From an uncultured Campylobacterales bacterium (GTDB lineage: Bacteria; Campylobacterota; Campylobacteria; Campylobacterales; Arcobacteraceae): 64,000 nucleotides of DNA. The position numbers were made by a program, and so were the translations under genes. Shown piece after piece: positions 30,782-34,032 of the stretch. The stretch spans positions 124,001-188,000 of the forward strand of contig CANNFB010000002.1 of the NCBI GenBank assembly GCA_947503785.1, read 5' to 3'. A model generated the notes under the pieces. The model ran no database searches, had not been told where the DNA came from, and saw only the letters and a list, made by a program, of their open reading frames with translations. Each line of letters opens with the position of its first letter. The stretch's first letter is position 1.

Positions 30782-30973
30782 TAAAGTTCTCCTTAGTTAT
30801 ATATATAATTATATACTTTTTATTATATATATAATATAAGAGCTTTTACAGGCTCTATAATCAGGTACTTCTATGCGAAAACATTAAAGATACAAATATC
30901 AATAAAATCAAAGAATTTAACACTTTATTAATCTAATAAAGATAAAATACATAATAAAGCACAGGAGCTCTAA

Positions 30974-31234
30974 ATCACTACTTTAAGTAAAAATTTTTTA
31001 TTAACAATATTAGCCTTGTTTTTTGTATTAATTTTCTTCATTTTTATACATGCTAATTTTATTAATCAAGGTAATTTATTTACAAAAACTATCTCAAATA
31101 TTACAAAAACTCCTGGAATATCATTTTCTACTTCAGACCTTGAACCAAGAATTAGGGTATATAAAGATTTTTCACACGTAATTTATCCTGAACAAAAGAA
31201 AATAAACTATTTGGACTTCGTATATGAAAACTAG
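30974..31234 (+). CDS. Small exported or membrane-anchored protein of an ABC operon, probable AUC start
   Basis: The frame has no ATG. The first conventional start is a TTG at 31016 inside the hydrophobic helix and without a ribosome-binding site. Upstream, AGGAG at 30963-30967 lies six bases before ATC 30974, the first codon after an in-frame stop; starting there gives 86 residues with TTLSKNFLLTILALFFVLI, a normal N-terminal helix. The rest (DLEPRIRVYKDFSHVIYPEQ) is not recognised. It overlaps the permease start by 11 bases. The existence of the gene is likely; the AUC start is inference. Confidence 0.6.
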   Translation: MTTLSKNFLLTILALFFVLIFFIFIHANFINQGNLFTKTISNITKTPGISFSTSDLEPRIRVYKDFSHVIYPEQKKINYLDFVYEN

Positions 31235-32402
31235 TACTTTTTTAAACTTCTTATTTTTATTAATTTACAAACATAAATCAAAACATATCGCAATCTCTTT
31301 AATATCAATTTTAATCGTATTTTTAATCTCTTCAGTTTTATTTATATCATCATCCGTACAAAAAGAAGTTTTTACTACGCTTGATGCACAAAGTGACTTT
31401 GTAATACAAAAAATAAATTCAGGTAAAATTGTTAATACTCCTAATTCTTGGATTGATGATTTTAGAAATATAAATGGAATTGAAAATATACAGCAAAGAG
31501 TTTATGGCCAATACTTCTTCGAACCATCAAAAAAATATTTCACTATTGTAGGTGTTGATTTATTTGAAGACTCAACTAATAAGAAAATAAAAGAGCTTTT
31601 AAAAATGTTAGATATTCAAGAATTTTTAGAAAAAGACTCTATGATTATTGGAAATGGAGTAAATGAAGTACTTAAAAAATTTCACTATTTTAATGATTAT
31701 TCTTTTAAACTGCACAATAGAGAGACAAAGAAAGTTTCTATTTTTAAAGCTTTACCCATAAATACAAATATAATTGCAAATGATTTAATTATTATGGATA
31801 TTTCACTTGCAAAAGAAATTTTAAATATCAATGAAGATGAATCAAGTGATATTGTTTTAAATGTACCAAATGAGTTAGAGCAATCAAATATCAAAATAGA
31901 ACTTATTTTAAAGCATTTAGATATTAGGGTTATTCAAAAAGGTGATATCAAAAAAGCCTATGAAAACCTATACAACTACAAAGGTGGTATTTTCTTAATT
32001 TTATTCATCATTGTTATGATAACTTTTGTTTTAATTTTATATCAAAGATATACAATGATTAGTTCAAGTGATAAAAAGGAGATTGGTATTTTAAGAGCTG
32101 TTGGATGGAGTATAAAAGATGTAATAAAACTAAAGATATTTGAGACATTTATCATTGCTTCTATTTCATTTTTAATAGGAGTTATTTTAGCTTATATTTA
32201 TGTTTTCTTTTTAAATGCTCCAATATTAAGTAATATCTTTTTAGGTTTTGGAAACTTAGAAAATAGTGTTTCATTTTCAGCAAATATTGATTTTTCAACT
32301 ATTTCAACATTATTTTTATTTTTTATAATTCCTTTTATTTCTGCTGTTTTAATTCCTACATGGAAAATTGCAGTAATTGAACCAAGTGAGAGTATGAAAT
32401 GA
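31224..32402 (+). CDS. ABC transporter permease, FtsX/MacB-like
   Basis: A 392-residue permease with one N-terminal membrane helix (about 22-45), a periplasmic region of about 200 residues, and three C-terminal helices, the MacB/LolC/FtsX layout. The cytoplasmic coupling segment KKEIGILRAVGWSIKDVIKLK before the third-last helix is typical. It would act as a homodimer with the following ATPase in mechanotransmission or lipoprotein/peptide extraction rather than classical import. It overlaps the ATPase start by four bases. Confidence 0.85.
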   Translation: MKTSTFLNFLFLLIYKHKSKHIAISLISILIVFLISSVLFISSSVQKEVFTTLDAQSDFVIQKINSGKIVNTPNSWIDDFRNINGIENIQQRVYGQYFFEPSKKYFTIVGVDLFEDSTNKKIKELLKMLDIQEFLEKDSMIIGNGVNEVLKKFHYFNDYSFKLHNRETKKVSIFKALPINTNIIANDLIIMDISLAKEILNINEDESSDIVLNVPNELEQSNIKIELILKHLDIRVIQKGDIKKAYENLYNYKGGIFLILFIIVMITFVLILYQRYTMISSSDKKEIGILRAVGWSIKDVIKLKIFETFIIASISFLIGVILAYIYVFFLNAPILSNIFLGFGNLENSVSFSANIDFSTISTLFLFFIIPFISAVLIPTWKIAVIEPSESMK

Positions 32403-33067
32403 TAAAAGTCAATAATTTAAATAAAGTATTTAATCAAAATACAAAAAAAGAATTCCACGCTTTAAAAGATATAAATATAGAGATTCAAACTTCATCTTGT
32501 GTAATATTAAAAGGTGTTAGTGGAAGTGGAAAGTCAACATTACTTTCTATTTTAGGAGCTTTATCAAAGCCTAGTTCTGGTGATGTGATTATAAATGATG
32601 ATAGTATTGCAAAACTTCCTGATTTACATAGTTCAATATTTAGAGCTGAAAATCTAGGCTTTATCTTCCAGTCTTATAATCTATTCAATGAATTAAATGT
32701 TGAAGAGAATATTTCTATTCCGCTAGTTCCTTTAGGTTTTTCTCAAAAAGAGATTAATCAAAAAGTTCAAACTGCTTTAGGTCTTGCAAATATCGAGCAT
32801 AAAAAACATGAAACTGTATCAAACCTTTCAGGTGGAGAAAAGCAAAGAACTGCAATTGCAAGAGCACTTGTAAATAATCCTGATATTATCCTTTGTGATG
32901 AGCCAACGGCCAATTTAGATAATGCAAACTCATTAAAATTTATTGAAGTAATGAGAAAATTAAAAGCATTAAACAAAACGATTATCATAGCAACTCATGA
33001 TCCAATTTTTGATAATTTAAATTTTGTTGACGATACTATAAATATAAAAGATGGGAAAATTACGTGA
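32399..33067 (+). CDS. ABC transporter ATP-binding protein, LolD/MacB type
   Basis: A 222-residue ATPase with Walker A GVSGSGKST (39-47), Q-loop near FIFQSYNLFNELNV, signature LSGGEKQR, Walker B ILCDEPTANLD and the H-loop in ATHDP. It belongs to the LolD/MacB/FtsE branch. ATGA-type overlaps on both sides (permease stop and the next GTG start) show a single transcription unit. Confidence 0.92.
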   Translation: MIKVNNLNKVFNQNTKKEFHALKDINIEIQTSSCVILKGVSGSGKSTLLSILGALSKPSSGDVIINDDSIAKLPDLHSSIFRAENLGFIFQSYNLFNELNVEENISIPLVPLGFSQKEINQKVQTALGLANIEHKKHETVSNLSGGEKQRTAIARALVNNPDIILCDEPTANLDNANSLKFIEVMRKLKALNKTIIIATHDPIFDNLNFVDDTINIKDGKIT

Positions 33068-34032
33068 ATAATGTACTTTTATCAAATGAAATAATTGTAT
33101 TTTTATTTACTCAAATAATACTTTTATCACTTCTTACTATCTCTTTTTTTTATTCACTTTCAATTATAAAAAACTGGGATTATTCAAAGACTACACAAGA
33201 GCAATATAAACTTGAAAAGCGTTCATATTTAGTAATACTAATCATTAGTTTTACAATGATTATAAAAATATTTCTAATGCCCTATTTTGCATATAGTATA
33301 GATATTTTATCGCATATAGTTCCAGGGGCTATGTGTGCTGCTGGAGTTATTGGAGCAAATGAATATGGGCAACCACTTTTAACTTTTAAAGTTACACTTC
33401 TATTTTTTATAGGTATTTGGATGATTTTAAATACACTTGATTTAAAAGAAAAGACTTATCCATATACAAAGAAGAAGTTTTACTTTTTTATTCTAATTTT
33501 TATGCTTGTAATTATTGAAACAACAGTTGATATTTTATACCTAACAAATATTTCAACGCAAGAACCAGTACTTTGTTGTTCTGTAATTTTTGGAGCAAGT
33601 TCAACAGGAACTCAAATACCATTTAATTTAGACATTCCTATGCTTCTAGTTTTATTTTATCTATTGTATTTTCTAACTATTTTTGTAAATATTCAAAAAA
33701 ATCCATACTTAAATATAATTATAAATATCCTATTTATTTATATTGCATATTATGCCGTTACATACTTCTTTGGAACTTACATTTATGAGCTTCCTACTCA
33801 TCAGTGTCCATTTTGTATGTTACAACATGAGTATTTTTATATTGGATATTTTATTTGGGCATCATTATTTCTAGGTGTATTTTTTGCTTTTGCATATTCA
33901 GTTTTAAAACTACTTATAAATAAAAGTCTTGATTATACTTTGAAGTATTCACTTATTTTTAATACACTTTTTGTGATTATTTGTACTTTTTATACGCTTA
34001 GATATTATTTTGTAAATGGTGTTTTTTTATAG
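33064..34032 (+). CDS. Polytopic membrane protein with conserved-looking Cys/His motifs, unknown function
   Basis: A 322-residue protein with about eight or nine membrane helices, starting at a GTG that overlaps the ATPase stop. Cysteines and histidines cluster near helix ends: H84 and C91 (SHIVPGAMC), C171-C172 (LCCSVIFG), then H246, C248, C251 and H255 (HQCPFCMLQH). A CPFC pair beside His suggests thiol-disulfide exchange or metal/haem binding, as in DsbB/VKOR-like or copper proteins. I do not recognise the family. Together with the MacB-like ABC pair it may form a redox or metal export and maturation system; this is inference. Confidence 0.6.
   Translation: MNNVLLSNEIIVFLFTQIILLSLLTISFFYSLSIIKNWDYSKTTQEQYKLEKRSYLVILIISFTMIIKIFLMPYFAYSIDILSHIVPGAMCAAGVIGANEYGQPLLTFKVTLLFFIGIWMILNTLDLKEKTYPYTKKKFYFFILIFMLVIIETTVDILYLTNISTQEPVLCCSVIFGASSTGTQIPFNLDIPMLLVLFYLLYFLTIFVNIQKNPYLNIIINILFIYIAYYAVTYFFGTYIYELPTHQCPFCMLQHEYFYIGYFIWASLFLGVFFAFAYSVLKLLINKSLDYTLKYSLIFNTLFVIICTFYTLRYYFVNGVFL

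Follow-up and report, generated by a model that had tools for sequence, protein, structure and literature searches.

How periplasmic respiratory enzymes, among them N2O reductase (relevant to greenhouse-gas removal) and copper-haem sulfite reductase, obtain their copper is only partly understood. NosDFY passes copper from NosL toward NosZ in an ATP-driven manner, and to our knowledge NosDFY is the sole ABC machine known for copper supply to such periplasmic enzymes. Structures of NosL have been solved and deposited in the PDB (7osf and others). The nos cluster of Sulfurospirillum (S. cavolei), in the available part of its description, contains a hypothetical gene, an ABC permease, an ABC ATPase and two further hypotheticals in succession (PMC4794192). 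A four-gene operon is described here from a 64,000-nucleotide stretch of DNA (hereafter the window, to which coordinates below refer). The preferred reading, to which we assign a probability of roughly 0.6, is that its products form a LolCD/MacB-type ABC machine in the inner membrane which, together with NosL, loads Cu(I) into periplasmic copper enzymes.

Organization of the operon

The window derives from the genome of a marine, Arcobacter-like member of the Arcobacteraceae near Poseidonibacter, and its g4 is 95% identical to that of P. lekithochrous. The following features were located.

30963..30967, + strand: Shine-Dalgarno sequence AGGAG of g1 (from the sequence; kept in 34/34 window-clade genomes)
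30974..31234, + strand: g1, 86-aa single-helix protein with an AUC start and a short tail predicted to be periplasmic (open reading frame; start codons in the clade; codon-position substitutions)
31224..32402, + strand: g2, FtsX/LolC/MacB-type permease, 392 aa (Pfam FtsX 1.5e-11; LolC profile 2.5e-6; AF2 model; Foldseek LolE 1.0e-14)
32399..33067, + strand: g3, LolD-like ABC ATPase, 222 aa (Pfam ABC_tran 2.1e-32; NCBIfam LolD 5.1e-58; PDB LolD 1.7e-38)
33064..34032, + strand: g4, 8-helix membrane protein with a GTG start, 322 aa (open reading frame; structure model; 99-row alignment)

All four genes are on the + strand and overlap by 11, 4 and 4 bases (g1/g2, g2/g3 and g3/g4), reproducing the coordinates and overlaps of the first-pass annotation. 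The order is kept in relatives, where it reads NosL, g1, g2, g3, g4 and a second NosL-like gene, the two outermost genes being variably present. Among loci with enough flanking sequence, g3 adjoins g4 in 69 of 75 outside the window clade and in 17 of 17 inside it; g1-g4 constitute a genuine operon. One locus (L141), a duplicate of L040, was removed from the g4 tree, the g4 alignment and the gene-order counts.

Relatives of g4 were found in 70 of 149 order genomes (one match being weak) and in 73 of 104 family genomes. The weak match (G115, 4.7e-4) was left out of the order co-occurrence counts, and a fragment (G189, 3.3e-11) was retained in the family set. In the g4 tree the window copy falls within an 18-row Arcobacteraceae clade (100/100). 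Four operon copies (L092, L104, L111 and L119) come from MAGs whose label is either Krumholzibacteriota or unassigned bacterium, with a GC of 0.48-0.55; their g4 rows form a clade beside a Sulfurimonadaceae row, for which transfer and binning error are both possible.

Linkage to NosL

Among loci outside the window clade whose flanks are long enough, 49 of 61 have a NosL gene upstream of the operon and 68 of 78 have a second, divergent NosL-like gene immediately downstream; a DsbD_2 gene is present in 30 of 69. The downstream protein is termed NosL-like from a weak Pfam match (0.0062 in one case, none in another) and from its resemblance by eye to nos-cluster NosL. In two mcc-type loci (L038:7000-7509 and L042:8667-9182) the downstream NosL-like protein was seen by eye to be without the CxxC of the other copies, which suggests a non-metal role for it.

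Loci of the window clade contained no upstream NosL (0/16), no downstream NosL-like gene (0/16) and no DsbD_2 gene (0/14). The window's own genome encodes a tandem NosL away from the operon (G000:C4, L136:9119-10222, minus strand) with two PF05573 domains (6.3e-35 and 1.7e-16) and a match to PDB NosL at 1.3e-10. The segment between these two domains resembles, by eye, the fold of a c-type cytochrome but carries no haem motif. High-scoring NosL was present in 33 of the 34 window-clade genomes, high-scoring being defined as a best PF05573 E-value of 1e-22 or lower, a threshold picked after the lists had been seen.

By this definition g4 and NosL agreed in 141 of 149 order genomes (both 65, g4 only 4, NosL only 4, neither 76) and in 100 of 104 family genomes (71, 2, 2 and 29, respectively). 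Counting any NosL instead, the corresponding values were 67, 2, 19 and 61 for the order and 73, 0, 12 and 19 for the family. Exceptions were g4 only in G021, G026, G038, G117, G166 and G193, and NosL only in G024, G043, G054, G121 and G163; some of the genomes counted are incomplete. Since the genomes share ancestry, p-values for co-occurrence overstate independence. Gene order and co-occurrence with NosL, together with the mcc and nos contexts described below, strongly suggest that the operon is involved with metal, specifically copper.

Copper-enzyme neighbourhoods

Copies of the operon in relatives lie inside clusters for N2O reductase (nos) and copper-haem sulfite reductase (mcc). In G131 and G010 the mcc order is octahaem cytochrome, PPIase, FeS, NrfD, CcsBA and Sel1, followed by NosL and the operon; CcsBA and NrfD were named by NCBIfam, and PPIase, FeS and Sel1 by eye. 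The octahaem cytochrome carries seven CxxCH motifs and one CX15CH, and matches MccA of PDB 4rkm (E 0). Nine of 13 MccA-positive order genomes contain g4, in eight of the nine no more than about 13 kb away from mccA and on the same contig; in G116 the two genes are on two contigs, each near a contig end. The mcc-type g4 rows form a single clade of eight (100/95, g4 tree). NosL and g4 are both missing from four MccA-positive genomes (G060, G072, G085 and G143; identity to the query 47-50%), and copper loading of their MccA must therefore differ. One mcc cluster (L144 7564-11607, in G020) has an apparently shortened FeS gene and no mccA, and retains g1-g4; genes judged transposon-like by eye lie at the mccA gap, and G020 is not among the MccA-matching genomes.

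Other copies are located among nos genes, e.g. L040, and nosF/nosY-like genes occur in the same nos clusters. Within the family, g4 and NosZ were not associated (both 34, g4 only 39, NosZ only 10, neither 21; p 0.2), and NosZ as a universal client was rejected on this basis. High-scoring NosL was also missing from all ten family genomes with NosZ and without g4. NosZ was present in 11 of 34 window-clade genomes. Across the order, g4 was missing from 16 of the 57 genomes in which NosZ matched at better than 1e-20, weaker matches being excluded from the counts; given these genomes and the 4 of 13 MccA genomes without g4, neither enzyme strictly needs the operon. No MccA was found in the window genome, and no copper enzyme was recognised beside the window copy. 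Two further candidates were considered as explanations of the g4 distribution and set aside: multicopper oxidases (PF07732, 38/149) do not fit, and for cbb3 oxidase any ccoN match was found in 129 of 149 genomes, yet in none of such g4 carriers as G055 and G116. As the operon travels with NosL and adjoins two different copper enzymes in relatives, it probably helps to place copper outside the cytoplasm.

The g4 membrane protein

Profile searches with the 322-residue g4, as proposed in the first-pass annotation, yielded nothing over the cut-off in Pfam and no match in NCBIfam or among PDB sequences, while its relatives and their neighbourhood led to the NosL linkage. The g4 model (pLDDT 88) consists of eight long helices and had no match among PDB structures at E <= 0.001. 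Its VIA-align matches were common helical bundles alone, mostly covering residues 1-167, and assignment to a known fold was dropped. Judged by sequence, g4 is a member of no named family.

Seven residues (Met90, Cys91, Cys171, Cys172, His246, Cys248 and Cys251) are identical in 99 of the 99 g4 sequences aligned, making this an unnamed membrane family with seven never-varying ligand-type residues. The cysteines and His246 had been listed in the first-pass annotation and stand; His84, listed with them, occurs in just 15 of 99 sequences, and the invariant Met90, neighbour of Cys91, had been overlooked. All seven sit in loops 2-3, 4-5 and 6-7 of the modelled helices and would therefore all face one side, C171/C172 and C248/C251 included, a placement that the annotation had wanted checked. 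These loops contain no Lys or Arg even with five-residue flanks, whereas the opposite loops contain 3, 5, 1 and 3, so that by the positive-inside rule the ligand side is predicted to be the periplasm. The seven residues are candidate metal-type ligands on the predicted periplasmic face.

The same residues could be given a thiol role: g4 would be a DsbB/VKOR-like thiol oxidoreductase keeping NosL or heme-ligation thiols in the correct redox state, with the ABC pair moving a thiol reductant. The HxCPFCMLQ motif at a helix start in g4 resembles that of DsbB (PCxLCxxQR), a DsbD_2-type gene follows in the 30 loci noted above, and a CcsBA heme-lyase gene lies upstream in mcc loci. However, 0 of 19 g4 members matched DsbB or VKOR in Pfam at E-values up to 1, the PDB sequence search was likewise empty, and g4 has eight helices, an odd cysteine set (C91, CC and CxxC) and the invariant Met90 and His246. 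We consider this reading unlikely, though better placed than the other alternatives. Redox protein maturation had been offered in the first-pass annotation; maturation fits, in the form of metal insertion and not of thiol redox.

The ABC pair

The g2 protein carries an FtsX C-terminal domain, and a profile of 18 g2 sequences matched LolC along its length in the PDB (2.5e-6). The AF2 model of g2 (pLDDT 81.6) matched LolE (best), LolC and MacB (4.5e-13) in Foldseek. An FtsX-type permease fold with a periplasmic domain after the first helix in g2, and an ATPase of the LolD/MacB/FtsE type in g3, place the pair in the LolCDE/MacB (type VII) ABC superfamily and bear out the MacB/LolCD likeness first assigned to them. 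Neither protein reached the NCBIfam cut-offs for LolC/E, LolD, MacB or FtsE; LolC/E scored 33.7 of 362 bits, and LolD, the best NCBIfam match of g3, 196 of 308 bits.

The MacB-like character of g2/g3 and the soft-metal ligands of g4 are both compatible with a MacB-like pump for the efflux or detoxification of copper or Cu-thiol. No MacA-like adaptor or outer-membrane factor was, however, recognised by eye in the operon or among its neighbours in the loci inspected, and the partners are maturation clusters and NosL. Efflux is accordingly rated quite improbable. The metal part of the metal or thiol export suggested in the first-pass annotation gains support, as copper, from NosL, mcc and nos; export does not, because the genes kept as partners encode copper chaperones belonging to clusters for enzyme maturation.

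About equally improbable is a Lol-like release system dedicated to NosL-type lipoproteins. The nearest solved relatives are LolC, LolE and LolD, and the N-terminus looks lipobox-like by eye in some of the downstream NosL-like proteins (L045 and L048), but the LolC/E score is far from its cut-off, the leader of the own-genome tandem NosL (..LSSLSAQENK) is by eye without a lipobox Cys, and the invariant g4 ligands would be left unexplained. An ordinary housekeeping LolCDE or FtsEX transporter shares the FtsX/ABC folds but is very improbable, with g4 in about half of the order genomes, scores far under the LolC/LolD/FtsE cut-offs and a g4 distribution that tracks NosL.

A predicted non-AUG start for g1

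The g1 protein has one helix and a tail of approximately 57 residues, predicted to be periplasmic, in agreement with the small anchored protein first described. Its start at 30974 is ATC, not ATG, GTG or TTG, lying six bases past AGGAG with an in-frame TAA immediately 5'; the ATC start and this TAA were absent from the first-pass annotation. Start codons were compared over 41 rows, of which the window and 33 genomes form the clade, and four sister genomes (ATG) and three outgroup rows were set aside. The codon is ATC in 13, ATT in 20 and ATA in one of the 34 clade genomes and ATG in none, and AGGAG is found 5-6 nt 5' of it in 34/34. None of the 34 has an ATG, GTG or TTG within the first eight codons, and an in-frame upstream alternative, a TTG 12 codons before, is present in G172 alone. 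Among five close sequences, substitutions at third positions exceeded those at first or second positions in 10 of 10 pairs; g1 is therefore coding. Initiation of g1 is predicted from sequence to occur at the conserved AUC/AUU/AUA codon.

If this is true, g1 is a rare case of a naturally conserved AUC/AUU start, and starts of this type are invisible to gene callers restricted to ATG/GTG/TTG. Rare start codons with regulated initiation are known, infC being an example. Initiation at a rare start is also regulated via IF3 in sigR of Streptomyces, according to the consulted part of PMC5472188.

Proposed mechanism

Under copper loading, the preferred reading, g1-g4 would form a mechanotransmission-type (LolCD/MacB) complex in the inner membrane. 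NosL, here the tandem-domain protein, would bring Cu(I) to the periplasmic face, where g4 may take it up or gate it at a thiolate/thioether/imidazole site formed by Met90-Cys91, Cys171-Cys172 and His246-x-Cys248-x-x-Cys251. ATP hydrolysis by a g3 dimer would move the periplasmic domains of g2 and so transfer copper onward to client enzymes, with g1 as a putative anchored accessory. We infer that copper is the metal and that g4 binds it, in which direction it is transferred, what ATP contributes, and that the window lineage has a client enzyme; the gene set, g2/g3 folds, residue invariance, predicted topology, NosL linkage and nos/mccA neighbourhood in relatives come from computation.

A broader proposal is put forward tentatively, with the odds somewhat against it: a general, ATP-driven copper-insertion machine, separate from NosDFY and built on a LolCD/MacB chassis with a new 8-helix Cys/His/Met family, may supply N2O reductase, copper-haem sulfite reductase and one or more further periplasmic copper enzymes, all unrelated to each other, its lead gene being held down in one lineage by a conserved AUC/AUU start that could tie output to initiation factor 3.

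Comparison with known systems

No characterised system with the g1-g4 set emerged from the literature searched, in line with the first-pass annotation. The SirA maturation paper (PMC6976685) does not mention copper, ABC or NosL; the consulted parts of PMC8267372, PMC2147049, PMC4584964 and PMC6682613 contain nothing on the set, and that of PMC7558416 gives NosL background only. The S. cavolei genes would correspond to g1-g2-g3-g4-NosL2 as in L040, an equivalence taken from gene order alone; in the part of PMC4794192 consulted they are predicted genes without function, and that part draws no link to mcc, NosL or solitary copies.

The permease and ATPase folds are shared with LolCDE, from which g1-g4 differ in having a single permease gene, scores under the family cut-offs, and g1 and g4 in addition. 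MacB has the same FtsX permease fold, but the g1-g4 ATPase is a separate chain and a MacA partner was not recognised. The likeness to NosDFY-NosL is that genes for an ABC ATPase and a permease adjoin those for NosL and for a copper enzyme of the periplasm. Unlike NosDFY, the permease g2 is a LolC/MacB-type FtsX protein, g4 and g1 stand in place of a NosD-type protein, and no NosD or NosY family match was found among g1-g4 in Pfam or NCBIfam. Furthermore, g1-g4 coexist with nosF/nosY-like genes, and 39 of the 73 family genomes that carry g4 have no NosZ. By analogy, with genomic linkage as its basis, the operon may carry out a NosDFY-like, ATP-driven transfer of Cu from NosL to a copper enzyme. 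The g1-g4 machine would then be analogous to NosDFY yet distinct from it, a second copper-delivery ABC machine that is widespread in Campylobacterota.
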